From: Beroe forskalii
Taxonomy: Eukaryota; Ctenophora; Nuda; Beroida; Beroidae
Assembly: GCA_011033025.1 (NCBI GenBank)
Contig: WFMF01000134.1
Coordinates: forward strand, 124,001 to 188,000
Direction: 5' to 3'
Length of the DNA: 64,000 nucleotides
The notes beneath the pieces are model-generated. The model was not told the DNA's origin and searched no databases. It was given only the letters and a program-made list of their open reading frames with translations. Shown piece after piece: positions 9,466-57,090 of this stretch. The position numbers were made by a program, and so were the translations under genes. Numbering within the stretch: the first letter of the stretch is position 1; the number at the start of each line of letters is the position of its first letter.

Positions 9466-9627
9466 CTGTTTGTTTTGTGTGCAATATTAACAAACAATTT
9501 CTCCAGGAGTTTCATGAAACTGAAGAAATACTGACAGGTGCATTGTGAACCATTGAGATCTTCGTCAGTGATACCAGAGTGAAGACCAGGTAGCGAACCT
9601 GAATCAGAGGAACTTGATCATCAGACA

Positions 9628-10747
9628 ATGTTCTTATCCTCTAAAAAAGAATCAAATAGATTAACAATCCTAGAAGAAAGGAGTCTTAGAACAATGAAGA
9701 TGTATCATAGGAGAATTATAGCTGTTTCAGTTGCATTATTTTTGTTCCTTGTTTGGACTAATTGGACAAGCATAACACACACAAGTACCTACTTGTATCA
9801 GATTGTTCAAATGATGTCTTGGGATCAGTCCCGCATACAGACGAGACTTAAGCTCGCTGCAGAAGATGAGTGGAGACTGCATAGCCTCAACATGAGACAT
9901 TACAAATCAGAATGTGCAGTAGCAGATGACAACCCTAAGCATGCTTGGATTACAGCGCTAAATAATGACGAATATGCCATCCCAACATTGGTACTGGGCT
10001 ACTTATTGGATAAACTTTCATGTGTCAGAACTAAAATCGCTTTGGTTTCTGATGGCGTTTCTCCGTTAGGGAAGATGGCTCTTGAGGCTGTTGGGTTCAA
10101 AGTTCAGGTCACAAAAGGGCTGGATTGCAACTATATGGATGAGCTTCACAGAAGAGAAATCAGCAACAAAGGAATCTCAGGAACCCATACGAGACTTCTA
10201 GTATTCAACATGACCGAATACGACAAAGTAATTTATCTTGATAGCGATTTCTTCCCCATTTCCCCCCTTGGATTCGCTCTTCGACGAGTTACAGCCACAT
10301 AAAGTGACTGTAGCCTTTGGTTCACCCCATAGTACCCTCGATCCCGGATTCAATGCAGGTCTGGTAGGACTTGTTCCTGATAACGAGCTTTACCAACAAG
10401 TCATGGACTTTTGGAAGGACTTGTCTGCCAAAGACTGCCCAGATGATCAGAGGTTGCTGTGGTGGTATTTTGCAAACCAGGAAAACTGGATTCCAGTGTC
10501 CTACAGTTTTAACGTAAGGAGGGAGCGGTATTTCCCCATGCGAAGTTTCCACTTTGCTCGAAGTAACTCTGAGCCGAAGCCGTGGGAATGGACCTCTCGA
10601 CCACCTGACAAGGAGCTCCGGTCTTTCAACGAACCCATGTACACAGTTATGGGCATAATTACCCTTTGGTGGAAATACTTGCTTACTGCCATTGAGGAAA
10701 AAGAATTGCACGAATTTTGGGACAGTGTGAAGCATCTAGTTACGTAG
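9628..10747 (+). pseudogene. GT8-family glycosyltransferase, type II membrane protein, one-base frameshift
   Basis: Single-exon gene that would encode 372 residues. Residues 1-29 form a basic cytosolic tail. Residues 30-46 (IAVSVALFLFLVWTNW) are a signal-anchor, so the enzyme would face the Golgi lumen. The GT8 domain starts at AWITALNNDEYAIP (106-119). YLDSDFF (203-209) holds the DxD metal/nucleotide-sugar site. The second half has FNAGLVGLVP, DQRLLWWYF and HFARSNSEPKPWEW, as in glycogenin-like GT8 enzymes. The frame breaks in a run of six C at 10262-10267: with five C the reading continues SPLDSLFDEL without loss, otherwise it ends at 10302. No other lesion is seen, so this is either a very young pseudogene or a sequencing error. 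A second Met (9691) would shorten the tail but keep the anchor. Donor sugar and acceptor cannot be read from the sequence. Confidence 0.85.
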
Positions 10748-22776: not shown

Positions 22777-22978
22777 ATGATATTCCTGTTATTGATATGT
22801 GCTTTGGCCCCACCTGGAACAGATAGCATAACAGTCCAAAGACCTCATCCTCTCAGAAACAAAGCCTTATCCTTCTTCAAGAACTACCATGCTACTGGGA
22901 GTGTTAGCTTGCCCTATGCTGAAATCAAGGAACCCTTCGAGGCGTGGTACTCTTCGTCCCTCAACATGAGCAGAATAG
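22777..22978 (+). CDS. 26-29-p: Cathepsin exon 1 (signal peptide, N-terminal domain)
   Basis: Start taken at MIFLLLICALAPPGTDS because it gives a standard signal peptide; upstream in-frame Mets at 22735 and 22741 would hide it. Continues VSLPYAEIKEPFEAWYSSS, as in the family. Ends ATA-G|GTTGTG (phase 1), so the next exon completes Asp in SRID. Confidence 0.85.
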
Positions 22979-25900
22979 GTTGTGTAAACTGTCTTCGTGG
23001 CGGAATCGTTACAGTTTAACTAAAAGTTTAAACTACTAAACTAGATAGGATACCCCTACTTGTTGCCTATAATTTACAAAACAAAATTCTATTTGATTGA
23101 TACTTTGATAGAATACAATAGGTTGCATAAGCTTCCTGATGATTATCATGATGTCTCCTTACTCCTCAGATTTCTACGGAGGTACTGTTAAGAACGTTAT
23201 TGACGTTGACGGAGACGCCTCATACAAAGTTGCGCCAATGACCAACGAAGTAGTCACCAACGAAATAACATGTTTCAAGTTTGAGGAGGGAGACTCACCC
23301 GAGCCACAGGTTAGGATTTATTTATTGATGTGACCCTCCCTTAACTTTTCGATATAGGTTTTCGATGTAGGTATTTCCCAGTACTGTTCTAGATGAGAAA
23401 CATATATCAGACTTCATTCCGGAAATGTAACCCTCCCTTTTCAGTCGGTGCTCCCCGACGCTTCCCTCTTCTCCTACGTAGCGACAGACGAGTCTACTGA
23501 GAAGTGGGTGTATGTGGACACGCCCCCCAACACCCACCTAACCCAAACCTACACGTGAGTGATGCATCTGGTCGTGGGTTCGAGTCCCTGCAACGGCCAT
23601 TTAATTTACTATTGCTGCAGCATTTATATGGACTTATGCATGTTCATATGGATGATGTTCATCAGGGAAAAACATCTAGGACCTAGATACACGCTCCTTC
23701 TTCATCGGGTTCGACCCCACGCCAAGCTCTGCACGCTTAAATAAGATGGTATAATTCTCGTGTTATCTACACTAGCAGGGCCCGTGGCCTCCGGCCACCG
23801 TTCACTATTTTTTCGCTTCAGCAATGAGTACAGTACAATGTAGTACTGTCGTTCTTATCAGTGATGAGGTCATATTTTAATCGGGTTTGCCTACTCTTCT
23901 AAGTTTTATACCTGGTGGTGTCAAACGTAAATGGTACTTTCGTATGAACATTACGATCATTGGTATGCTTGATTGGGCACTGAGTGGTGTCAGAGAGGTC
24001 TGTGGCTATATATAAGGAAGACCGGACAGACAGATATATATTTATTAATTTACAAGTTCAGGGGATACAATCCACTTGAAAGTGCTCAACTTATGAGATA
24101 AGGAGCGAGTTATACACAATGATACAACACTTTAGTGACGAACAATATGTTTCATGGTTGCTACACCAATCATCAGCATCGTTAGCTACTTGGCACTAAT
24201 TTTCGCAAAAACCTCGGTTGACTCCTTTATAAATATTGGATACCGAGTCAGACAACTCCATATCAATTAATAACGAGAATTTAAGAAATATTACGGTAAA
24301 AAATCGGTAAAATCGTTAAAAATCGGTAAAAATTGGCCAAAAATCGGTAAAAATCGGTAAAATCGGTAAAAAGTGCTGTAAGCCATGAAATTGTCCCTGG
24401 TTAATTTGTAAAATTCGTAAAATTCTAAAATCGAGAAAATCATTTATATCAGACGTTAAAAAATGGTTAAAGGCATCTGCTCAATGAAAATTTGTTTTTA
24501 TGGCGACATTTAGAAATCATTTCGTTCCTTTTATTTAACAAGAATTTAGATTGGTTGGCTACAATCAGCAGTTTTTCGGTAAGACAGAGGTCACACTTGG
24601 TTTTTCCACCTTGATATGGAAACGCTTTCTTAGCTATTTCCCACGTTATTGAATACTCCTTCCCTCCTTCTTTGATTTCCCAAATTTTTTTAGACAGTTC
24701 TGTACTATTCCTCTTGCTTTCATGACGGAAGGAGCTCGTGTGGTTGCTGTACCTAGTTTTGAATTCCCCCTCTGATGTTCCGAAGTATGAATAAGTTTCC
24801 CCATCAGTTTTCACTGGCGCTTTATAAACAAGTGTTTTTTCCAAACACTTGTTTTGTAGGGGGCACTCAGACTGTATCCGGCAGTTGCATTTTCTTTGGG
24901 CTGCTGTTCCTACACTATCTTGGTTTAAAACCTTTTGGTTGAAGCTCTTGACTAGTCTCTGGACGTTAGGCATGCAACTGTATGCGAGCTTTACCGAGTT
25001 CCTATTTATGAGCCTGTGTAGTTCATGGCCTGGGGGGAAGTGTTTGTTGAGGAGCTTGAAAAATTTTCGTCCTATGTCTGTTTTCACGTTTCCATTGAAG
25101 GGGGGGTTAAACCATAGCACATTTCTCCGTCTTCTCCGCTTGCTACTGGTTGTAGATGGTGGGGTTTCTTGGAATTTGAGCTCGTGACTGTACCCACTGT
25201 TTTTCAGGGCCTCGTTGTAGGGAGCCTTAGCTTTGTCAAATTCCTCTTCATTGCAGGAAATGTCAGAGATTCGGCGCTGAATCATCGCTGGGAGGTTCTT
25301 TATTATGGTTGGTGGGTGATTTGACTGGGCGTTGACGTAGAGGGGCGTGCTGTTCGGCTTCATGTAGGGGGAGTACTTGCCGTTTTCCAGATTCATGGTG
25401 ATATCCAGAAAATCGGCTATCCTCAAGTTAGGTTCGACCGTGATCTTCAGGCCCTCGTCCTTGAAGATCTGGGTGATACGTTTCCGTATCTGGTCTACCT
25501 TATGACCAGTTGCATTGGGTATGATGGCTAGGCCATCATCCCTGTATAAGCCGATTTGGTGGGCTGGTACAAACTTGTTTATTTTGTGAAGTAAGTACAA
25601 GCCAACCAATTCACACGTTTCTGCACCGTCATATGAGCCCATTGTTACGTCAAAACGCCCACCTTTTTTCTCCCAGGCACTGCCCTCACTGAAGAGTAGT
25701 GAGTTCTTAGCGTGCATCACGATCTTGAGGTCCTCATCACTGATTTCTGCGTGGAGTTTGGCAAAGTTAATGGCTCGCGTTAACAATGACGGGGGGGGGT
25801 TTCACTGTCCCAATTGTCCCAAACTCAAGAAAAAGTGGATTGGGACAGGGACAATTGGGACAAATGGGACATTTGGGACAAATGGGACAATTGGGACAAA

Positions 25901-28900
25901 TGGGACAGAGGAAATAGAACAAATTGGACTCAGAAAAGTGAATGCGGACTGGGACAATTGGGACATTTGGGACAAATGGGACAATTGGGACAAATGGAAC
26001 AGAGAAAATGGAACAAATGGGACTCTAAAAAGTGAATGTGGACTGGGACAATTGGGACAAATGGGACAATTGGGACAAATGGACAGAGAAAATGGAACAA
26101 ATGGGACTCAAAAAAGTGAATGCGGACTGGGAAAAATGGGACATTTGGGACAAATGGGACAATTGGGACAAAAATGGCAGAGACAACTGGGAATCAAATG
26201 ATTGTGTTTTTAAGTGGCAGTTAAGTGTTTTTTGTCTCACAGCCTGTTACATAGCAGCACTTACTGCGTTGCAACTGCCACTGTCTTTTTCCTATCATGG
26301 GTTTTGAGATAGGGAAGTGGAGACACTTAACCACTGCAAACAAACACAACCAAAACTTGTACTTAATATAGAAGTATATGAATATAACTTTAATTTCAAT
26401 GATAGAAAATCTTGAATCAATAAAAAAATGATAAATGACTGATTTTTTCAACTTTTGGTTTGTCCCAATTGTCCCAAATGTCCCAGTTGTCCCAATTGTC
26501 CCAAAAACCAGTCCCAAACTCAAAAAAAAGTAAATTGGGACAGGGACAATTGGGACAATTGGGACACTGAAACTCCCCCCAATGACTCTGTTATTGATGG
26601 GTAAAATTCGACGATGTCAAATTTTATGAATTTCGGTTTGTTTTCATTGCGCAGAAATCAGTGATGAGGACCTCAAGATCGTGATGCACGCTAAGAACTC
26701 ACTACTCTTCAGTGAGGGCAGTGCCTGGGAGAAAAAAGGTGGGCGTTTTGACGTAACAATGGGCTCATATGACGGTGCAGAAACGTGTGAATTGGTTGGC
26801 TTGTACTTACTTCACAAAATAAACAAGTTTGTACCAGCCCACCAAATCGGCTTATACAGGGATGATGGCCTAGCCATCATACCCAATGCAACTGGTCATA
26901 AGGTAGACCAGATACGGAAACGTATCACCCAGATCTTCAAGGACGAGGGCCTGAAGATCACGGTCGAACCTAACTTGAGGATAGCCGATTTTCTGGATAT
27001 CACCATGAATCTGGAAAACGGCAAGTACTCCCCCTACATGAAGCCGAACAGCACGCCCCTCTACGTCAACGCCCAGTCAAATCACCCACCAACCATAATA
27101 AAGAACCTCCCAGCGATGATTCAGCGCCGAATCTCTGACATTTCCTGCAATGAAGAGGAATTTGACAAAGCTAAGGCTCCCTACAACGAGGCCCTGAAAA
27201 ACAGTGGGTACAGTCACGAGCTCAAATTCCAAGAAACCCCACCATCTACAACCAGTAGCAAGCGGAGAAGACGGAGAAATGTGCTATGGTTTAACCCCCC
27301 TTCAATGGAAACGTGAAAACAGACATAGGACGAAAATTTTTCAAGCTCCTCAACAAACACTTCCCCCCAGGCCATGAACTACACAGGCTCATAAATAGGA
27401 ACTCGGTAAAGCTCGCATACAGTTGCATGCCTAACGTCCAGAGACTAGTCAAGAGCTTCAACCAAAAGGTTTTAAACCAAGATAGTGTAGGAACAGCAGC
27501 CCAAAGAAAATGCAACTGCCGGATACAGTCTGAGTGCCCCCTACAAAACAAGTGTTTGGAAAAAACACTTGTTTATAAAGCGTCAGTGAAAACTGATGGG
27601 GAAACTTATTCATACTTCGGAACATCAGAGGGGGAATTCAAAACTAGGTACAGCAACCACACGAGCTCCTTCCGTCATGAAAGCAAGAGGAATAGTACAG
27701 AACTGTCTAAAAAAATTTGGGAAATCAAAGAAGGAGGGAAGGAGTATTCAATAACGTGGGAAATAGCTAAGAAAGCGTTTCCATGTCAAGGTGGAAAAAC
27801 CAAGTGTGACCTCTGTCTTACCGAAAAACTGCTGATTGTAGCCAACCAATCTAAATTCTTGTTAAATAAAAGGAACGAAATGATTTCTAAATGTCGCCAT
27901 AAAAACAAATTTTCATTGAGCAGATGCCTTTAACCATTTTTTAACGTCTGATATAAATGATTTTCTCGATTTTAGAATTTTACAAATTAACCAGGGACAA
28001 TTTCATGGCTTACAGCATTTTTTACCGATTTTACCGATTTTTACCGATTTTTGGCCAATTTTTTACCGATTTTTAACGATTTTACCGATTTTTTACCGTA
28101 ATATTTCTTAAATTCTCGTTATTAATTGATATGGAGTTGTCTGACTCGTTATCCAATATTTATAAAGGAGTCAACCGAGGTTTTTGCGAAAATTAGTGCC
28201 AAGTAGCTAACGATGCTGATGATTGGTGTAGCAACCATGAAACATATTGTTCGTCACTAAAGTGTTGTATCATTGTGTATTTATTAATTTATATATGAGG
28301 AAGAATTATAAGTAGTAAGATTATTGTGTGCCAAAAATCATAGTGCCTTGAGCTTGCTTCCATCAAACACTCGCCCATAATCCGTCATCGTCAAATAACA
28401 GATACTTTATATTTTGCAGGCTGTTTGTAACAGAAGCAGAGCAAATTCCGATCCAGTTTGTCATGGAAGGTTTCAACATCATCAGTGGTTCCCATGTTGA
28501 CAAATACGTCATAGACTACACGAGCTTTACCCAGGTTAGTTACTGTTTTCCTCTCACTCGGCTGCAGTTACTGGACGCTATAAAAACGAGGTCGAGGCTC
28601 CCTTGTGTCTTTGCATCGGTATCGGTACTTCTTTTGGCTGAAGTATGCTCAAATGGAACCGCAGTTATGTAGTTATCAATCTTTTTAAAATTTTCCTTTA
28701 GTCACCTTTAACGGTAAAAAATTATTAATTTTCAGCAATATTAGCACAAAAGTTTACAAACATTCAGAATGTCTAATCCAATAGCTAAGTCGCCACTTAT
28801 TGTTGAGCAAATAGCAATCCAATAACTGAATACTATCGTTCAGGCAGACGACATTAGCGCTGCAAATATCACTGATGCTATCCAAGGATTGGACTGTGGC

Positions 28901-31900
28901 GGTTTCCCTGGCCCGGGGCACGCAGGTCAGTCACTTTTTTCTCGAAATTAGACAAGACTGTGCTTGAAAACAAATCAACAAAGAAATAGGTTTCTGTAGT
29001 CTCTTCTTCTCTTGTCGTTTTAGGCACAATATGAGTGACGGACGGACGTTTTTGGACCTATTCGTTATGCCTGTTCCACGCAACCAAACGCAAAATGGTT
29101 TGTATGTGTTTGTACAAACTAATGATTTGCTGCAGGTTCTGACAATGAACTGTTCGCTGATATCATCGGCAGTAAACTCGACCACTTGACCAACTTCGAC
29201 ACATTCCGTGAGAAGTATGACAAGAGCTACACCTCCAAGGAAGAGCACATCTCCAGATACGCAACCTACCTCAACAACGTGAGGTGAGTGTTACACTTAC
29301 AAACCTGCAAACGGTTCTCATTGCACGAAATGAAAAGATTAAAAAAGAAGATAATTTCTATGTCGCGTGAGGGACCCAAATTACTAAATTATGGGATTTG
29401 GTACAAGTCGACCTAGCTCCCAAAGTTGTCGTCACATTTCAATGAAAATTTCCAGTTTCTTCAAGCATGAACATAAAAACGTCAAAAAATTAAGGTGTCT
29501 ATATGCTATCTTCCGACCTATAGCCTATAATATACTAATATCTTAACACGAGGAAATATAATTTTAGCGATTTTCTCAGTATTCGGTAAACAATTGCTTG
29601 AAAACTGGTCGGCACATTTTGACTTAACTTTCCAGTTAAGTGATCTAAATCGTCAAAAATCGGGAGGTCTTTTCTCTAACTTTTGAGCTCTATCCGAATA
29701 CAAGGATTTACCATTTTTCTTGTGTTTTGATAAAAGCTCGAAAGTTGGTACATAGACCACCCAATTTTTTGACGTTTTTTATAAGCTCTGGGTCATGCTT
29801 GACTTAACTGAAAAGTTTCAATAAAATCGGACGCCACGTTTGTGAAAAAAGGGGTACAAATACACTTTCCGCAGTATTTGTGGTAAACTTTGGACTAAGG
29901 TCACAGTGAATGTCACAGAGTTTCAGGTGTAATTTGTAATTACCATGACCCATGGTAATTATGATTGGGTGCAACTTTTTTATGTCACTTTTTCAAAATT
30001 CAATGATCTAGTTAGTTTCGTATACTATGGTCGGAAAATGTTCTGTCTTTTCGCTGAATGCCGACTTTAAACCCAGCTTTGGTCGAAAGTCCTACTGATG
30101 TCACAAATTTCGATGTCATAATCGTAGCACGCTGCGACAAAAGTCTGATTTCTTGATCCACGCGGTTTGCGCGCGCTGGGCAGCGCGCGCCGCGCGAAAG
30201 TAAGTGAAATATGATAGGAATGTGAGGGGATAGTCGCGGGTGATTGAAGAAAGAACTGTAGAAGTGCGGAAAGTGGTGTCAACGTCACAGACTTGGTATG
30301 TGCAAGTAACGTTGTTCGTCATTCTTGATTGGGTTACGAGTGGTGTCAACGTCATTGAGATGGTATGTGGAATGTGCATACGTCACTGTTCGTCATAGAT
30401 GACAGAGTGGTGTCAACCATCATATATAAGGACTTGTACTGCCCCTCTCGCCATTAGTTCGATTCGTTTATTAGTGTTCAAGCTGTCTTGCTTAACGTGT
30501 TGTTAATAAGGTATCGTTGTTAATAAGGTACCGTTGTTAATAAGGTATCGTTGTTAATAAGGTATCGTTGTTAATAAGGTACCGTTGTTAATAAGGTACC
30601 GTTGTCAATAAGGTACCGTTGTTAATAAGGTACCGTTGTTAATAAGGTACTGTTGTTAATAAGGTACCGTTGTTTATAAGGTACCGTTGTTTGTAAGGTG
30701 CCGTTGTTAATAAGGTACCGTTGTTAATAAGGTACCGTTGTTAATAAGGCACCGTTGTTAATAAGGCACCGTTGTTGACAAGGTACCGTTGTTAATAAGG
30801 CACCGTTGTTGACAAGGTACCGTTGTTGACAAGGTACCGTTGTTGATAAGGTACCGTTGATTGAAAGGTACCGTTGTTAATAAGGTACCCTTGTTAATAA
30901 GGTACCGTTGTTAATAAGGTACCGTTGCTAATAAGGTACCGTTGCTAATAAGGTACCGTTGTTAATAAGGTACGGTTGTTGATAAGGTACCGTTGTTAAT
31001 AAGGTACCGTTGCTAATAAGGTACCGTTGCTAATAAGGTACCGTTGCTAATAAGGTACCGTTGTTAATAAGGTACGGTTGTTGATAAGGTACCGTTGTTA
31101 ATAAGGTACCGTTGCTAATAAGGTACCGTTGCTAATAAGGTACCGTTGCTAATAAGGTACCGTTGTTAATAAGGTACCGTTGTTTATAAGGTACCGTTGT
31201 TAATAAGGTACCGTTGTTAATAAGGTATCGTTGTTAATAAGGTACCGTTGTCAATAAGGTACCGTTGTTTATAAGGTACCGTTGTCAATAAGGTACCGTT
31301 GTTAATAAGGTACCGTTGTTAATAAGGTACCGTTGTTAATAAGGTACCGTTGTTAATAAGGTACTGTTGTTAATAAGGTACCGTTGTTTATAAGGTACCG
31401 TTGTTTGTAAGGTGCCGTTGTTAATAAGGTACCGTTGTTAATAAGGTACCGTTGTTAATAAGGTACCGTTGTTAATAAGGCACCGTTGTTGACAAGGTAC
31501 CGTTGTTGACAAGGTACCGTTGTTGATAAGGTACCGTTGTTAAAAAGGTACCGTTGATTGAAAGGTACCGTTGATTGAAAGGTACCGTTGTTAATAAGGT
31601 ATCGTTGTTAATAAGGTACCGTTGTTAATAAGGTACCGTTGTGAATAAGATACCGTTGTTAATAAAATACTGCTAATAAAATACCGTTGTTAACGTCGTA
31701 CCGTTGTTAAAGTGGTCCTGTTGTTAGTAAGGTACCGTTTCAACTCGGTACCGTTGTTAAAAGTTACCAACTTTTTGGCCGGGTTTGGTACCCCCCAGAC
31801 CCACTTGCGCCAAAAAATTTTCTTTCGGTCCGAGGACCAAATGGACGTGTTCAGAAATAACTGCTGTGAAATTCCAAAAATTATTTTCCAAAATGTGACA

Positions 31901-34900
31901 AATTTTACAAAAATGGCTGCCAATCTTGAAACTTTCACTCAAAAGGTCTGAAAATCTGATACATGGTCAATAATGATCTATTTATCACCATCTTATTTGT
32001 TTTGACCCTAAATTATTGTTGAAAGGCCAGTTATGATACCAAAATCACAGTAGTATCAGTTCTTGGCCCTGGACTGAAAAACTTGGTCTTATCCTCTTGT
32101 CGGAGTTCCTGAACATATTCTTGCACCTATTGTGAGTGCATTGATGAAATATGGTCGGTAAATCACAAGCAAATGGTCAAGTTATAATACAAGTCACATG
32201 GAAGTTATTATTCCTGCTATTGTGATAAAATGGCTATAATACCGGAACCTTAAGCTTTGGCATCCTAATATCTTCAGAAAATATTCAAAATTGATAGGTT
32301 TTATGGTTTCACTGGACAAAAATTGATTTGCGGACATGGATGATACAAATGTCACACATCGAAAAATTTTCATCAAATTTTAGTGTGACAGCAATATTCG
32401 TGTTGATTGGAGTTGAAAAACCATCATTTGAACGAAATTTACTTAGAATAGTCGAACCTAATGAAACCAGTGGCTAGAATTGATTTTTAGCTGCATTTGA
32501 TACAAATATCACAGTGTCAAAGTTAAAAAAGTGCTACCTTGGCCATCGAATTTGTATACCACAGAAATAGTGTGATAAATGTATCATTAGCTAACCTAAG
32601 GACTACAATCGAGTGTCAGACAATATGTTTAGTTCCAAATAGGCTATAGGAACATCAAAACATTTGGAAATGATACAAATATCACACTTTCAAAATTGAA
32701 CTCTTTGACTGCAAAGCGGTGATTTTTGTATCACTTTTGACCCAGCAGTGGATTTTTGCAGTTTATACTATCTTGTCAATGTTTATTTTAGATGCACCAA
32801 AAGTTCCCAAGTTCTTAGGACCTCTGTGATACCCAAAATCACATAAAGATTACTTTTATAGCATATTTTAGCCAAGATTTTAGATTTGTGACCTTTGTAT
32901 CAATTTTTGATTGAAAAATATATCCACATTACTTAAATATGTTTAAAAGTAGTCAAATATTTCCATTAGACCAAGAAAGTGCTCGAAAAATAGATTTAAG
33001 ATACCTAAATCACATGGTGAAATTCGGTAAATTTCAAAACAAAACTGTGACTATTGTATCATCTTTTAACCCCAGACCAAAAATTTCGATTGGTATGGGT
33101 ATATAATTAGTCACTCCATTCTCCTTAATTTTCAGACAATTTCATTGATTGGTTAAATTTCTATGGCATGTAGTATCAATTCTAGAAATTGTTTTTTGTG
33201 ATTTCTGTATCATTTCACTTTAAAGCATCATATCTCAGGATCTGATTGAGATGAAATATTCGTGATTTCAGGATCATGAAATATAAAGTTTCATCCTTCA
33301 TAAAAACTTTCCTTCCACCAATTTATTCTTCATCTTAGGCCTTTAAAACGCACAGAACCAAAAAAAGAATTTCACAGCAGTTATTTTTGAACGTGTCCAA
33401 ATATTGTTTGACTTTACATTTTCCATATGTGAGCCCAAGCATCACATTCTTCAAGTTGCACATACGTTCGATATATTATCTGTCCGTGAAAACGGGAGTT
33501 AGTTCTTCGACGAAATACTAATCTGGGTTTGTGTTGAGAAACACAATTCGTAAAAACCAACATTCTGTGTACTGACAATAATTCTAATTTCCTTTGATCA
33601 TCTCCCATATGATAAATATGATGGAGATACTTTCCTCCATAACGGGTCTGATCCTCATCACCCATACTGTCATTTCCCAACTCCCACAGGTACATCAATT
33701 CTAAGAACCGTCAAGGTCTGCCGTACACCTTGGGAGTAAACCATATGGCTGATTGGCTACCTCACGAACATCGCAGGTAGTTTCAATGATGTTTTTCGGC
33801 ATTTTGGTCCCCAAGTGGTCCTCCAAGTCGGTGAAACACCAGTCTATAATTGAGTTAGGACACCCTTCCTCAGCGTTATTTTGCTTATTTTGATTCTGAT
33901 CAATATACAACTTTTCAGACTACGAGGTAAACTGTATTCCGGTGAAAGGAACAACGGCAAACCATTTCCCGTCGATAAGATAAACCTCACCGAGTTACCT
34001 GGCTTTTTTGACCTCAGAGTTGAGGGTTTGTCCATTGCAATTTTGTTTATTCCTGTTACACGTGATGTTTTTATTTCTGCTATACTACGTTCGTTTACCC
34101 ATCTGTAAAAAGTCATTTTAGTGTGGCAATAGCAAACTTTCCAGGCGCTATCGGCCCAGTGAAAGACCAGGCCATCTGTGGCTCCTGTTGGTCCTTTGCT
34201 ACAACAGGCTCCATCGAGGGAGCCTTCTACAACAAATACAAATACCGGATATCTCTCTCCGAACAGAAGTAAGAAACACATCTCACTTTTCAAGCTCGTT
34301 CCCTCACGTCTCAACCCTCCTTCACATTGCTTTAGTACTTTCCTCAGATTACTTCGTGGATAGACGCAGAAATGAGCTCATTAATGATACACAATTTTTC
34401 AACAATCCTACTTATTGTTAACTCGTCAGGTCACTTATCATTTTCAAAAGATAAATATTCTTATATCATCGCCCCAGATTAACGTTCCCATTTTCAGTCG
34501 CTCTGGTAGTTTATATATTATAATGAGTTAATGAATTTCACATCATAGAGCGTGGAGGGATTGTGTTGTACGGGTAGGCTACCACACTAGGCTACCACTC
34601 TAGCAATTGGCACACTAGATTACCACACTCGGTTACCTCATTCGGCTACCAGTTACCACACTAGGTTACCGCACCCTGTTACTGTATTGTCTTCCTTTCC
34701 TATTAGGTTACATTGGGTTACCACACGTGGTGCCAAAATTAAGTAAACAAGCCGAGTTATCCTCACGACCCCATACCGCAGTATCATGGATTGCTCGTGG
34801 GGGTACGGTATCAACCCCTTACCGCAGTATCATGGATTGCTCGTGGGGGTACGGTAACAACCCCATTACCGCAGTATCATGGATTGCTCGTGGGGGTACG

Positions 34901-36279
34901 GTAACAACCCCTTACCGCAGTATCATGGATTGCTCGTGGGGGTACGGTAACAACCCCATTACCGCAGTATCATGGATTGCTCGTGGGGGTACGGTAACAA
35001 CCCTTACCGCAGTATCATGGATTGCTCGTGGGGTACGGTAACAACCCCTTACCGCAGTATCATGGATTGCTCGTGGGGGGTGCTCGATTGCGGTAACAAC
35101 CCCATTACCGCAGTATCATGGATTGCTCGTGGGGGTACGGTAACAACCCATTACCGCAGTATCATGGATTGCTCGTGGGGGTACGGTAACAACCCCTTAC
35201 CGCAGTATCATGGATTGCTCGTGGGGGTACGGTAACAACCCCTTACCGCAGTATCATGGATTGCTCGTGGGGGTACGGTAACAACCCCATTACCGCAGTA
35301 TCATGGATTGCTCGTGGGGTACGGTAACAACCCCATTACCGCAGTATCATGGATTGCTCGTGGGGGTACGGTAACAACCCATTACCGCAGTATCATGGAT
35401 TGCTCGTGGGGGTACGGTAACAACCCCTTGCCGCAGTATCATGGATTGCTCGTGGGGGTACGGTAACAACCCTTACCGCAGTATCATGGATTACGGTAAC
35501 CCCTTACCGCCGTATCATTGCTCGTGGGGGTACGGTAACAACCCCTTACCGCAGTATCATGGATTGCTCGTGGGGTACGGTAACAACCCATTACCGCAGT
35601 ATCATGGATTGCTCGTGGGGTACGGTAACAACCCCTTACCGCAGTATCATGGATTGCTCGTGGGGTACGGTAACAACCCCTTACCGCAGTATCATGGATT
35701 GCTCGTGGGGTACGGTAACAACCCTTACCGCAGTATCATGGATTGCTCGTGGGGGTACGGTAACAACCCCATTACCGCAGTATCATGGATTGCTCGTGGG
35801 GGTACGGTAACAACCCATTACCGCAGTATCATGGATTGCTCGTGGGGGTACGGTAACAACCCCTTACCGCAGTATCATGGATTGCTCGTGGGGGTACGGT
35901 AACAACCCCTTACCGCAGTATCATGGATTGCTCGTGGGGGTACGGTAACAACCCCTTACCGCAGTATCATGGATTGCTCGTGGGGGTACGGTAACAACCC
36001 ATTACCGCAGTATCATGGATTGCTCGTGGGGGTACGGTAACAACCCATTACCGCAGTATCATGGATTGCTCGTGGGAGTTCGGTAACAACACCTTACCGC
36101 AGTATCATGGATTGCTCGTGGGGGTACGGTAACAACCCCATTACCGCAGTATCATGGATTGCTCGTGGGGGTACGGTAACAACGGCTGTGACGGTGGTGA
36201 GGAGTGGAGAGCCTACGAGTGGATCATGAAACACGGTGGCATTGCCTATGAAGAGGAGTATGGACCCTACCTCATGGCT
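22777..36279 (+). CDS. 26-29-p: 26/29 kDa-type cathepsin (papain family C1A), exons 1-10; 3' part missing
   Basis: Ten exons join to 415 codons with matching phases: 22777-22978, 23170-23309, 23445-23554, 28420-28534, 28844-28925, 29136-29283, 33690-33776, 33919-34025, 34145-34268 and 36150-36279. The order is signal peptide, the N-terminal domain specific to 26/29 kDa proteases (SRIDFYGG, GFNIISGSHVDKYVIDY), the I29 inhibitor region with ERFNIN-like spacing (EEHISRYATYLNNVRYINSKN), then LGVNHMAD. The mature domain begins with DQAICGSCWSF (oxyanion Gln and catalytic Cys), then SEQNIMDCSWGYGNNGCDGG. Family members run to about 550 residues, so ~140 residues with the catalytic His and Asn are absent; I could not find them downstream. 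Expected to be a secreted or lysosomal/granule endopeptidase. The introns carry most of the local mobile elements. Confidence 0.88.
23170..23309 (+). CDS. 26-29-p: Cathepsin exon 2
   Basis: Acceptor ACTCCTCAG, donor CACAG|GTTAGG, phase 0 out. Encodes DFYGGTVKNVI and TNEVVTNEITCFKFEEGD, matching the DYYGG...N-x-x-x-CF pattern of the 26/29 kDa N-terminal domain. Confidence 0.85.
23445..23554 (+). CDS. 26-29-p: Cathepsin exon 3
   Basis: Acceptor CCTCCCTTTTCAG, donor CTACAC|GTGAGT (phase 2 out). Starts SVLPDASLFSYVATDESTEK and contains WVYVDTPPN. Confidence 0.85.
23577..24055. other. 5' part of intron 3: two B-box-like words and a TATA-containing repeat
   Basis: GGTTCGAGTCC (23577) and GGTTCGACCCC (23708) match the internal B box of Pol III genes, but no paired A box or tRNA fold was found. 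From about 23915 to 24060 the DNA resembles 30267-30490: repeated GAGTGGTGTCA words, then CTATATATAAGGA and TTTATTA...CAAG. This looks like a repeated promoter or element end. Confidence 0.35.
24039..24052 (+). repeat. Direct repeat left of the Penelope pair (TATTTATTAATTTA)
   Basis: The same 14-mer recurs at 28278-28291, just outside the right end of the inverted pair, in the same orientation. Consistent with a target duplication, although 60 bp separate this copy from the start of the left arm. Confidence 0.5.
24467..25786 (-). CDS. Penelope-like element RT/GIY-YIG protein, left copy (partial)
   Basis: A 439-codon frame without stops. MGSYDGAETCELVGL is RT motif B and GLYRDDGLAI is the YxDD-type motif C. 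The thumb-like FLDITMNLENGKYSPYMKP follows, then NPPFNGNVKTDIGRKFFKLL. A Cys-rich stretch (CNCRIQSECPLQNKC) precedes the GIY-YIG-type endonuclease region (LVYKAPV, YFGTSEGEFKTRYSNH), and CRHKNKF lies near the end. Full-length elements encode about twice this, so the N-terminal half with RT motifs 1-A is absent. The first Met is inside the domain and probably not a natural start. Best preserved of the two copies. Confidence 0.85.
   Translation of the reverse strand: MLTRAINFAKLHAEISDEDLKIVMHAKNSLLFSEGSAWEKKGGRFDVTMGSYDGAETCELVGLYLLHKINKFVPAHQIGLYRDDGLAIIPNATGHKVDQIRKRITQIFKDEGLKITVEPNLRIADFLDITMNLENGKYSPYMKPNSTPLYVNAQSNHPPTIIKNLPAMIQRRISDISCNEEEFDKAKAPYNEALKNSGYSHELKFQETPPSTTSSKRRRRRNVLWFNPPFNGNVKTDIGRKFFKLLNKHFPPGHELHRLINRNSVKLAYSCMPNVQRLVKSFNQKVLNQDSVGTAAQRKCNCRIQSECPLQNKCLEKTLVYKAPVKTDGETYSYFGTSEGEFKTRYSNHTSSFRHESKRNSTELSKKIWEIKEGGKEYSITWEIAKKAFPYQGGKTKCDLCLTEKLLIVANQSKFLLNKRNEMISKCRHKNKFSLSRCL
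25791..26580. mobile_element. 790-bp TIR element filled by a GGGACAATTGGGACAAAT minisatellite
   Basis: The ends are GGGTTTCACTGTCCCAATTG at the left and the near reverse complement of that at the right, each beyond a G/C run. The element is flanked by AATGAC on both sides (25785-25790, 26581-26586), a clean 6-bp target duplication. Most of the interior is 9-10 bp (ATT/AAT)GGGAC(A) units. Open frames here (WDNWDKWD repeats) are minisatellite translations, not genes. Confidence 0.8.
26652..27933 (+). pseudogene. Penelope-like element RT/GIY-YIG, right copy, frameshifted
   Basis: Same protein as the left copy, but the run of seven C before TTCAATGG is six C here (27295-27300), so the frame stops at 27316 and resumes from 27313. 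Other differences are few (for example VYKAS for VYKAP, FPCQGG for FPYQGG). Coding starts inside EISDEDLK because the arm ends there. Confidence 0.85.
28420..28534 (+). CDS. 26-29-p: Cathepsin exon 4
   Basis: Acceptor TTATATTTTGCAG, donor CCCAG|GTTAGT. The first base completes the Thr codon of exon 3. LFVTEAEQIPIQFVMEGFN and SGSHVDKYVIDYTSF are hallmarks of the N-terminal domain. Confidence 0.88.
28844..28925 (+). CDS. 26-29-p: Cathepsin exon 5
   Basis: Acceptor CTATCGTTCAG, donor GCAG|GTCAGT (phase 1 out). Encodes ADDISAANITDAI and CGGFPGPGHA; the family has C-x(n)-FPGPG here. Confidence 0.85.
29136..29283 (+). CDS. 26-29-p: Cathepsin exon 6 (I29 propeptide, ERFNIN helix)
   Basis: Acceptor TTTGCTGCAG, donor GTGAG|GTGAGT (phase 2 out). 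FREKYDKSYTSKEEHISRY starts the inhibitor helix. AT-rich DNA at 29284-30240 in the following intron shows nothing I recognise. Confidence 0.88.
30240..30490 (+). repeat. Second copy of a TATA-containing repeat (GAGTGGTGTCAACGTCA)
   Basis: Three GTGGTGTCAACGTCA-type words, then CATATATAAGGACTTG and TTTATTAGTGTTCAAG, in the same order as 23915-24060. It runs directly into the 17-bp minisatellite. May be the promoter end of an element; no coding sequence follows. Confidence 0.45.
30503..31690 (+). repeat. 17-bp minisatellite (GGTACCGTTGTTAATAA), ~70 units
   Basis: Nearly every unit keeps the GGTACC palindrome; variants are TTAATAA, CTAATAA, TTGACAA, TTTATAA and TTGATAA. A higher-order block of about seven units repeats between 30955 and 31160. 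It lies in intron 6 of the cathepsin gene and decays into single degenerate units up to 31760. Confidence 0.95.
31838..33406. mobile_element. 1.57-kb TIR element with an internal GTGAT(N)ATCAC motif array
   Basis: The left end GGACGTGTTCAGAAATAACT continues to GCTGTGAAATTC; the right end is its reverse complement with three mismatches in 32 bases. Between them at least ten degenerate copies of GATACAAATATCACA occur in both orientations, spaced 50-150 bp apart. No transposase frame. Located in intron 6. Confidence 0.65.
33690..33776 (+). CDS. 26-29-p: Cathepsin exon 7
   Basis: Acceptor CCAACTCCCACAG, donor CGCAG|GTAGTT (phase 2 in and out). YINSKNRQGLPYTLGVNHMA completes the ERFNIN Asn and the VNHMAD element of the propeptide. 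Confidence 0.88.
33919..34025 (+). CDS. 26-29-p: Cathepsin exon 8 (propeptide to mature boundary)
   Basis: Acceptor CAACTTTTCAG, donor GAGG|GTTTGT (phase 1 out). LRGKLYSGERNNGKPFP is typical of the family. LPGFFDLRVEG sits where other papains have LP-x-x-x-DWR, so the mature chain probably starts nearby. Trp of DWR is replaced by Leu. Confidence 0.85.
34145..34268 (+). CDS. 26-29-p: Cathepsin exon 9 (catalytic Cys)
   Basis: Acceptor AACTTTCCAG, donor CAGAA|GTAAGA (phase 2 out). PVKDQAICGSCWSFATTGSI contains the oxyanion-hole Gln and the nucleophilic Cys. Ends ISLSEQ plus two bases of Asn, the standard lead into the (L/I)-(V/M)-DCS motif of the next exon. Confidence 0.9.
34556..34740. repeat. 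Degenerate GGTTACCACACTA repeat
   Basis: About ten loose copies of (a)ggttaccacacta in intron 9, just before the splice-site minisatellite; the TTACC core is shared with that array's junctions. Confidence 0.6.
34767..36149 (+). repeat. 46-bp minisatellite made of the exon 10 splice acceptor and first codons
   Basis: About 31 tandem units of 45-47 bp (one at ~35483-35512 is truncated). Each unit contains TTACCGCAG followed by T ATC ATG GAT TGC TCG TGG GGG TAC GGT AAC AAC. These bases are the acceptor and the first 34 nucleotides of exon 10, encoding (N)IMDCSWGYGNN, a conserved papain-domain stretch. Only the last unit continues into GGCTGTGACGG. The open frames up to 153 codons seen in the array are by-products. 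Confidence 0.95.
36150..36279 (+). CDS. 26-29-p: Cathepsin exon 10
   Basis: Uses the acceptor of the last minisatellite unit. The first base completes Asn of SEQN. IMDCSWGYGNNGCDGGEEWR, then AYEWIMKHGGIAYEEEYGPY. Donor GCT|GTACGT, phase 0. The next exon, expected to start near DGYCH, is not seen; 36280-36850 contains nothing I recognise. Confidence 0.88.
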
Positions 36280-36851
36280 GTACGTAGTTCAATGATAATT
36301 TACTTTCTCTCTTAGCTATCTGACCCACCTATAATAAGATACCTACACTAGACTTACGCGCTTACCCTGTATTAATTCAAGGGGGACGGCGACAAAATCG
36401 CGAAGGAAAGTGTCAAAACGCGCTGAAAACCGTCAAAACGCAAAGAAAGCGCCAGAAAAATGGCAAACTGAACGGGGAGCTGTTTTTGGACAGAAATGAC
36501 GATTTTTACCCTTTATTTGCCGTAGAGGAACGAGGGTTCAGGGGCGGACAAAAATGGTGAATCTTGTCATAGATTATGCGCCCGACACCACTGCAGCAAT
36601 GATATCCGCCAGTTTTTGCTGGTTTTCCTGTAAATCAAAAAAATCCTAGTTCTACCTCTCAAAACGTTGATCCGTTGTTTATTTATTTTTGGGACTAAAA
36701 TTTAAAGTTTGGCCGATTGAGCTGAAACTTGCACTCCATTCATGGAAGACCTGAGACCTTAGTAAGACATAACTGACGTCAGAGCTTCGAAATCACCCAT
36801 AACACAATTGATTGTACGAAGCTAAGCTTAATAAAGATGGATTACCAAATA

Positions 36852-55370: not shown

Positions 55371-55542
55371 CTGTTTTGATAACATGGGTCGCTCCCTCCA
55401 TCAAATAGAACATCTGGGGCTTCCGTGGATCCCCAGACCCGAGCAAAGTCCAGTCTCCCTCTCGCTCACGCCACGCTGACACTACAGCTCCAAGCTTGTG
55501 GGTGTGTGTACGGAACGCGAAGGGGGTCATGTCTTCTTCTTC
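55371..55542 (-). CDS. PHM: PHM internal exon with copper-binding HTH
   Basis: Minus-strand exon with acceptor ACTCCCCCAG and donor AACAG|GTAAGA (phase 1). Encodes EEEDMTPFAFRTHTHKLGAV, then SAWREREGDWTLLGSGDPR and KPQMFYLMEGATHVIKTG. It matches the PHM family pattern (FA-R-HTH-LG-VVSG, G-WTLIG, P-Q-FY). The two His of HTH are ligands of the catalytic copper (H242/H244 in rat). PHM hydroxylates glycine-extended neuropeptide precursors in secretory vesicles as the first step of C-terminal amidation. The exact 5' edge is uncertain because the acceptor and the first ~20 bases are identical to the adjoining minisatellite unit. Upstream exons with the other copper site are not found in this window. 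Confidence 0.88.
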
Positions 55543-57090
55543 CTGGGGGAGTGGAGGGTCATGTCTTATTCTTCCTGGGGGAGTGGGGGTCATGTCTTAT
55601 TCTTCCTGGGGGAGTGGAGGGGTCATGTCTTATTCTTCCTGGGGGAGTGGAGGGTCATGTCTTATTCTTCCTGGGGGAGTGGAGGGGGTCATGTCTTCTT
55701 CTTCCTGGGGGAGTGGAGGGTCATGTCTTCTTCTTCCTGGGGGAGTGGAGGGTCATGTCTTCTTCTTCCTGGGGGAGTGGAGGGTCATGTCTTCTTCTTC
55801 CTGGGGGAGTGGAGGGTCATGTCTTCTTCTTCCTGGGGGAGTGGAGGGGTCATGTCTTCTTCTTCCTGGGGGAGTGGAGGGGTCATGTCTTCTTCTTCCT
55901 GGGGGAGTGGAGGTCATGTCTTCTTCTTCCTGGGGGAGTGGAGGGTCATGTCTTCTTCTTCTTCCTGGGGGAGTGGAGGGTCATGTCTTCTTCTTCCTGG
56001 GGGGGGGGTCATGTCTTATTCTTCCTGGGGGAGTGGAGGGTCATGTCTTCTTCTTCCTGGGGGAGTGGAGGGGGTCATGTCTTCTTCTTCCTGGGGGAGT
56101 GGAGGGTCATGTCTTCTTCTTCCTGGGGGAGGGGGGTCATGTCTTATTCTTCCTGGGGGAGTGGGGGTCATGTCTTCTTCTTCCTGGGGGAGTGGAGGGT
56201 CATGTCTTCTTCTTCCAGGGGTCATGTCTTCTTCTTCCTGGGAGTGGAGGGGTCATGTCTTCTTCTTCCTGGGGGGTCATGTCTTCTTCTTCCTGGGGGA
56301 GTGGGGAAGGTCATGTCTTATTCTTCCTGGGGGAGTGGAGGGTCATGTCATCTTCTTCCTGGGGGAGTGGAGGGTCATGTCTTCTTCTTCCTGGGGGAGT
56401 GGGGAAGGTCATGTCTTATTCTTCCTGGGGATGTCTTCTTCTTCCTGGGGAGGAGGGTCATGTCTTATTCTTCCTGGGGAGTGGGGGGGTCATGTCTTCT
56501 TCTTCCTGGGGAGTGGGGGGGGTCATGTCTTCTTCTTCCTGGGGAGTGGAGGGGTCATGTCTTCTTCTTCCTGGGGAGTGGGAGGGTCATGTCTTATTCT
56601 TCCTGGGGAGTGGAGGGTCATGTCTTCTTCTTCCTGGGGAGTGGGGGGGGTCTTCTTCTTCTTCCTGGGGGAGTGGGGGGGTCATGTCTTATTCTTCCTG
56701 GGGGAGTGGAGGGGTCATGTCTTCTTCTTCCTGGGGGAGTGGAGGGTCATGTCTTATTCTTCCTGGGGGAGTGGAGGGTCATGTCTTATTCTTCCTGGGG
56801 GAGTGGGGGGGGTCATGTCTTCTTCTTCCTGGGGGAGTGGGGAGGGTCATGTCTTCTTCTTCCTGGGGGAGTGGAGGGGTCATGTCTTCTTCTTCCTGGG
56901 GGAGTGGAGGGGTCATGTCTTCTTCTTCCTGGGGGAGTGGAGGGTCATGTCTTCTTCTTCCTGGGGAGTGGGGGTCCATGTCTTATTCTTCCTGGGGAGG
57001 AGGGTCATGTCTTATTCTTCCTGGGGGAGTGGGGGGGAAAAATGTCTTCTTCTTGGGGAAGTGGAGTTGTCTTATTCTTCCTAATGGGGG
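55529..57090 (-). repeat. ~32-bp minisatellite made of the PHM exon's acceptor and first codons
   Basis: About 50 units of 30-33 bp. In transcript sense each reads CTCCCCCAG|GAAGAAGAAGACATGACCC, then TCCA: the acceptor and first 19-20 bases of the PHM exon. Variation is mainly TTCTTC/TATTC and the length of the G runs. All three plus-strand frames stay open for 500-600 codons, a by-product of the unit lacking stops on that strand. Confidence 0.93.

Follow-up and report, generated by a model that had tools for sequence, protein, structure and literature searches.

Where does an exon begin for the splicing machinery when its 3' splice site, along with its first codons, is repeated some thirty times before the exon is reached, and how could a gene have come to carry such an arrangement? 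This question is raised by a papain-family (cathepsin) cysteine protease gene in a 64,000-nucleotide stretch of Beroe forskalii DNA (the window; positions 124001-188000 of contig C175, from an assembly of 216 Mb in 1134 contigs). A tandem array at 34768-36183 of the window lies directly 5' of, and runs into, exon 10 of this gene (36150-36279). We think it very probable that the array is a splice-junction minisatellite, of the type called a 'mirage' in amphioxus, and that its last, exon-proximal acceptor is the functional one. A sequence-only reading of the window had already described a minisatellite made from the 3' splice site and first codons of cathepsin exon 10; this description is borne out by our analysis, and its exon numbering agrees with our gene model.

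Structure and confinement of the array

Cutting the array at each acceptor gives 30 tandem units upstream of the true exon (34768-36149), in which an intron end of the form ACCCC(A)TTACCGCAG is followed by the first ~34 nucleotides of exon 10. The terminal unit (36135-36183), continuous with the others, contains the true acceptor of intron 9 followed by the first 34 nucleotides of the exon. There are 31 acceptor positions in all, 30 upstream and the true one, with first exonic bases from 34782 to 36150. The sequence-only reading had counted about 31 near-identical acceptors before the true exon. The unit length that it gave, 45-47 bp throughout, describes 26 of the 30 upstream units (15 of 46 bp, six of 45 and five of 47), with the other four measuring 31, 42, 44 and 56 bp. 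TTACCGCAG is exact at 28 of the 31 positions, all 28 copies in the window fall inside the array, and the acceptor AG is intact at 30 positions. The exonic part is identical to that of the true exon in 20 of the 30 upstream units, or in 26 if one G of variable length is ignored, seven units having one G fewer. As had been noted before, the last unit alone continues into the body of the exon (GGCTGTGACGG). Searching within 3 kb for a 24-mer that spans the exon edge, with up to three mismatches allowed, gives 28 additional copies and none for the reversed control; the repetition of the exon edge is far beyond chance. The array is preceded by a 5' part of intron 9 (34269-34767) which includes short degenerate TAGGCTACCACAC repeats at 34575-34651; their resemblance to the TTACC of the array unit is only suggestive.

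An ordinary satellite, or a mobile element that seeds introns, might have happened to take in an exon edge and so produce a similar picture. Tandem arrays are abundant here, with 24 of them (period at least 10, at least three copies, at least 60 bp) making up 15.7% of the window, and chance would by itself bring some of them onto exon edges: when these 24 arrays were placed at random 5000 times, they covered on average 3.0 of the 20 exon edges and reached one or more in 74% of trials, where one of 20 is observed. The overlap between arrays and exon edges is not above chance and we claim no enrichment of arrays at exon edges; no special mechanism is therefore needed to account for the position of the array, and the notable part is that the gene tolerates it. 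Against a satellite or mobile element, however, stands the confinement of the unit. When a 25-mer of it was matched against the whole assembly with up to two mismatches, 29 matches fell on C175, 49 on contig C363, where a second copy of the gene lies, and none on any other contig. The sequence-only reading had said beforehand that a unit dispersed away from this gene would count against it, and no such dispersal appeared; a dispersed satellite or introner element, which should have copies at unrelated loci, was rejected on the same search. The unit also encodes a motif conserved in homologues, and the paralogous gene on contig C409 carries no such array at this place. Taken together, we consider a satellite or mobile element as the source extremely improbable.

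A second copy of the gene and turnover of the array

On C363 the array of the second gene copy begins and ends at the same points, but it has 56 acceptor positions rather than 31 and measures 2566 bp rather than 1415 bp, a 1.8-fold difference. The acceptor AG is intact at 54 of these positions, and among the 55 upstream units the exonic part is that of the true exon in 20, or in 25 when the length-variable G is ignored, with 11 units having one G fewer. There are 15 unit types among the 31 units of C175 and 42 among the 56 of C363, of which two are common to both. Few types in common and 31 as opposed to 56 positions show that the array has turned over since the two copies separated. Between the copies, there are 24 substitutions over the 495 aligned bases of the 5' part of intron 9 and 34 over a further 1290 of flanking intron, whilst the exons, over compared ranges some of which include a few intron bases, differ by 15 substitutions in 1153 bases and one 6-base indel, with no difference in exons 9 and 10. 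The exons thus diverge less than the introns that flank them.

The C363 copy may be either an allele or a duplicate, because its collinearity with C175 ends upstream, beyond C363:15.3 kb. Whilst C363:1-15.2 kb is collinear with C175:140.8-161.6 kb, its pieces matching at 88-94%, comparison of C363:15.3-50 kb with C175:104-198 kb gives just 28 short matches, the longest of 318 bases, most of them on the opposite strand and most within one minisatellite. The difference in the number of positions is accordingly one between two copies of the gene, which may be duplicates and not haplotypes.

The existence of two such copies also bears on whether assembly produced the array or greatly exaggerated its length. 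The presumed 3' end of the gene lies on another contig in two copies, and the assembly there may be imperfect. However, two contigs have different arrays within the same boundaries, built from different unit variants, and a mirrored array is found at a third locus (C409), so that an assembly artefact seems very unlikely to us.

Origin from the exon edge

The paralogue on C409 has the same phase-2 intron, which is short there, and a conserved exon 10 coding sequence, and no array is present at its equivalent of intron 9. Because homologues conserve this coding sequence and the array is missing from the C409 intron, the exon edge is the source of the array, in line with the earlier proposal that the edge itself was amplified rather than a satellite having landed nearby; the conserved sequence in C409 and in related proteins supports this. 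For the same reason, namely a short phase-2 intron without an array in the paralogue, the array is best read as derived rather than ancestral. We propose that a segment covering the very end of intron 9 and the first 34 nucleotides of exon 10 was duplicated in tandem and then expanded. The duplication itself rests on the sequences, and the expansion presumably occurred by slippage or unequal exchange. With the true exon as the last unit of the array, intron 9 ends in decoy versions of its acceptor region, 30 of them in C175 and 55 in C363.

Choice of acceptor

Joined to exon 10 at the last acceptor, exon 9 reads LSEQN-IMDCSWGYGNNGCDGG. Three related proteins, P0001-P0003, align across this junction without a gap (SEQN-LMDCSWGYGNN), differing in L for I in all three and in A for G before CDGG in P0003. 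These look like transcript-derived proteins of relatives: P0001, of 546 amino acids and 81-82% identical to the predicted protein, comes from a 1918-base contig, and the source contigs of P0002 and P0003 have 2061 and 1672 bases. In this species the last acceptor alone yields the product seen in these proteins and, as far as homologues show, the earlier reading had exon 9 joined to the right exon. We infer use of the last acceptor because of these transcript-like proteins and the coding conservation between the two gene copies. Exon 9 would most likely be joined there through exon definition, since this is the sole acceptor that leads at once into the body of exon 10 and its donor.

Occasional entry further upstream was simulated at every intact CCGCAG|TAT acceptor, each product being read straight through any donor-like GGTAAC within a unit. 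By length, 10 of the 29 products in C175 and 13 of the 52 in C363 are in frame, but none of the 29 and none of the 52 is open to the true exon. The suggestion that 45-bp units might add in-frame protein therefore fails for both copies. Because no upstream acceptor gives an open, in-frame product, use of one should cost the gene mRNA rather than lengthen or alter the protease: it would lead into out-of-frame or stop-containing sequence and so to less correct mRNA, not to a new protein. Copy number could likewise change the dose of correct mRNA but not the length of the protein.

This leads to a functional alternative, in which selection keeps the acceptors as decoys, the length of the array sets the level of correct mRNA like a rheostat and upstream choices end in nonsense-mediated decay. 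It fits the retention of AG at all but one of 31 and two of 56 positions, the lack of any simulated upstream product that is both open and in frame, and the 1.8-fold difference in array length. In C363, substitutions per site are also lower in the TTACCGCAG core, at 0.016, than in the exonic sequence of the unit (0.026) or in its intronic sequence as a whole (0.040). In C175, by contrast, the core shows no better conservation than the exonic sequence (0.007 compared with 0.003), and turnover makes units alike, so intact AGs require no selection. A human parallel is divided in the same way. In the excerpted text of PMC5954066, skipping of ABCA7 exon 19 rises with the length of a donor-bearing variable number tandem repeat (VNTR), whereas a frame-shifting isoform that retains one unit, that is, actual use of a decoy, stays at ~2% whatever the length; skipping alone changed. 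An RNA hairpin was considered and rejected as well: although an inverted repeat (CGGTAA...TTACCG) spans the boundary between units, folding of two constructs gave stabilities no higher than those of shuffled sequences (z -0.77 and 0.57), and this, too, counts against the rheostat. We therefore regard selection for a decoy function as distinctly unlikely, and prefer a splice-junction minisatellite whose last acceptor is used.

Several points weigh against this preferred reading. The true acceptor looks weak by eye, with a short pyrimidine tract compared with the family's other acceptors. The evidence on the junction comes from proteins of relatives, whose probable origin from mRNA was judged from the size of their source sequences. 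Exons 11 and 12 were found on neither C175 nor C363, and C363 may hold either an allele of the gene or a duplicate.

Related arrays in the protease family

On the minus strand of C409 (~96231-95224) an exon end and its donor (CAGACTTATAC|GTAAGT) are repeated into the following intron over ~1 kb, giving 24 sites. The repeated exon end encodes NTHVNQTYT, the donor reads GTAAGT or GTTAGT, and the sites lie 40-46 bp apart; reading past the first donor of this array meets a stop at once. On the minus strand of contig C749, which carries the presumed exons 11 and 12, both copies of exon 12 are followed after the stop codon by decayed tandem copies of the last codons (TGATGCCACTTCTGTGGAGGTCAAG), as seen by eye; the tandem-array analysis likewise places arrays there. 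A scan of the exon edges in the window, C409 and C749 returned the two splice-side arrays, at exon 10 and on C409, with none in reversed controls, and no further edge-derived array among these exons. These few loci suggest that exon-edge arrays are recurrent in the protease family.

Two other features of C409 were seen on the minus strand. By homology, the exon that follows the donor array is expected to begin at GTTGTACGTTTATGG (~95055), where the preceding bases are TATAC with no AG, pointing to either a non-canonical splice, a broken gene or a wrongly placed exon edge. Further, exon 1 is directly followed by ATTTCTACGGTG, and exon 2 begins with it (from 97082 and 96801), as if the exon 1/exon 2 boundary had been duplicated once.

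The protease gene and its surroundings

Ten exons of the gene lie on the plus strand of the window between 22867 and 36279, placed by tblastx against the C409 paralogue, inspection of splice sites and related proteins, with some edges approximate. Exon 1 is represented by its 3' part (22867-22978; start codon and signal peptide not delimited), followed by exon 2 (23170-23309), exon 3 (23446-23555, approximate), exon 4 (28420-28534), exon 5 (28846-28926, approximate), exon 6 (29137-29284, approximate), exon 7 (33691-33777, approximate) and exon 8 (33919-34025), which has an approximate 3' edge and a donor, set by homology, that looks weak (GTTTGT). Exon 9 (34145-34268; donor GTAAGA at 34269) and exon 10 (36150-36279; donor GTACGT at 36280) are identical in C363. 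The spliced product holds Inhibitor_I29 and Peptidase_C1 domains. Where its relatives have a name, this is 'digestive cysteine proteinase' or 'counting factor associated protein D'. Exon 9 encodes QAICGSCWSF, in which we take the cysteine of QAICGSCW to be the catalytic cysteine of the papain protease, and exon 10 encodes the DCS..GCDGG stretch.

Exons 11 and 12 are present on C749 as two copies ~21 kb apart, pieces of which are 94-98% alike, and the upstream exons were not found beside them. Joined to those of the window, the C749 exons make up a full protein, and its alignment with P0001 to P0003 extends as far as their C-terminal ends; we therefore take this contig to carry the 3' end of the window gene, apparently split off by the assembly or by rearrangement.

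Intron 6 contains a 17-bp minisatellite at 30499-31768, which spans 1270 bp here and ~780 bp in C363. Intron 3 contains two closely similar reverse-transcriptase-like open frames that face away from each other (24467-25801 on the minus strand and 26630-27933 on the plus strand) and look Penelope-like. Elsewhere in the window, a 32-bp array at 55524-57036 is open in all three forward frames, for 534 to 621 amino acids, and a single-exon glycosyltransferase-like gene at 9583-10744, with PF01501 in its relatives P0241 and P0242, has an apparent frameshift near 10260. Across the assembly, scoring 150 of 199 candidates gave 128 papain-like matches, with each exon counted as one; many of these lie on open frames of 300-1200 amino acids, alongside the intron-rich gene described here. 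An intronless cathepsin on contig C449 has its nearest named match in Mnemiopsis leidyi, at 70%, and a 100% match in a contig of 1003 bases. No Mnemiopsis protein is among the best 120 of 1815 matches to the window protease product, and a second window gene had two matches only.

Relation to known splice-junction repeats

The architecture is already known from amphioxus mirages and, on the donor side, from human ABCA7, and the present case differs in copy number, side and lineage. Mirages are tandem duplications of 5' or 3' intron-exon boundaries (PMC3087553), and those of Adh3, BflGb6, BflGb9, TnC and PGBD5 include acceptor-side and donor-side cases in which, as here, many units retain splice signals; PMC3902484 describes the PGBD5 case and also mentions Adh and TnC. 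The array at exon 10 has the same character, with a unit that spans the exon-intron boundary, is continuous with it and retains its splice signals. Regular splicing is maintained according to the authors (PMC3087553, PMC3902484), and for BflGb6, which has six and three units in two haplotypes, it is suggested by reverse-transcription polymerase chain reaction (PMC3087553). The BflGb6 units measure 150-160 bp, compared with ~46 bp and 30 and 55 upstream copies here, whilst Adh3 units, at 10-72 bp, are close in size to ours. The host is not a lancelet, judging by its protease, to which Branchiostoma homologues are 46% identical among the matches listed.

In humans, the VNTR in ABCA7 intron 18 has a 25-bp unit that starts with the donor of the flanking exon and is present in ~12 to 427 copies (PMC5954066). 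Our unit similarly carries the splice site of the flanking exon, although it is an acceptor rather than a donor and comes with 34 exon bases, whereas the ABCA7 unit is described, in the excerpted text, without exon sequence. In the CBS gene, the 844ins68 variant duplicates the intron 7/exon 8 junction, with the distal site strongly preferred, and a 31-bp VNTR (c.1444_1467+7) runs from coding sequence into the intron in 16-21 copies (PMC2630376); the paper calls the 844ins68 sites 'donor', although a title cited there says 3' splice site. The former is a single extra copy and the latter lies on the donor side, unlike the 30 and 55 acceptor-side copies upstream of exon 10. Intron gain by tandem genomic duplication (PMC2812944, with PMC4974935 and PMC2891723 among the literature matches listed) likewise creates new splice options from boundary copies, but makes a new intron, whereas here an existing intron was lengthened and no new one is seen. 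Among the literature matches listed, none reports a splice-junction minisatellite in a ctenophore or other non-chordate, and those listed for chaetognaths and for ctenophore minisatellites include no relevant match.

The locus would thus extend splice-junction minisatellites beyond lancelets and humans. It offers a natural test of how the spliceosome chooses among ~30 to 55 near-identical acceptors which differ mainly in what follows the last, and it makes 34 coding bases part of a rapidly evolving repeat, in which exchange with a unit that is one G short could shift the reading frame. A broader proposal is that exon edges are recurrent seeds of minisatellites in this lineage and that array length acts as an inherited dial for the yield of correct mRNA. 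We hold this to be unlikely, the dial being weakened because use of the ABCA7 decoy did not vary with length (PMC5954066, in the excerpted text), and the claim on lineage because Mnemiopsis is missing from the 120 matches listed for the window protease. If it were true, mirages would be no curiosity confined to lancelets but a general way for animal introns to grow.
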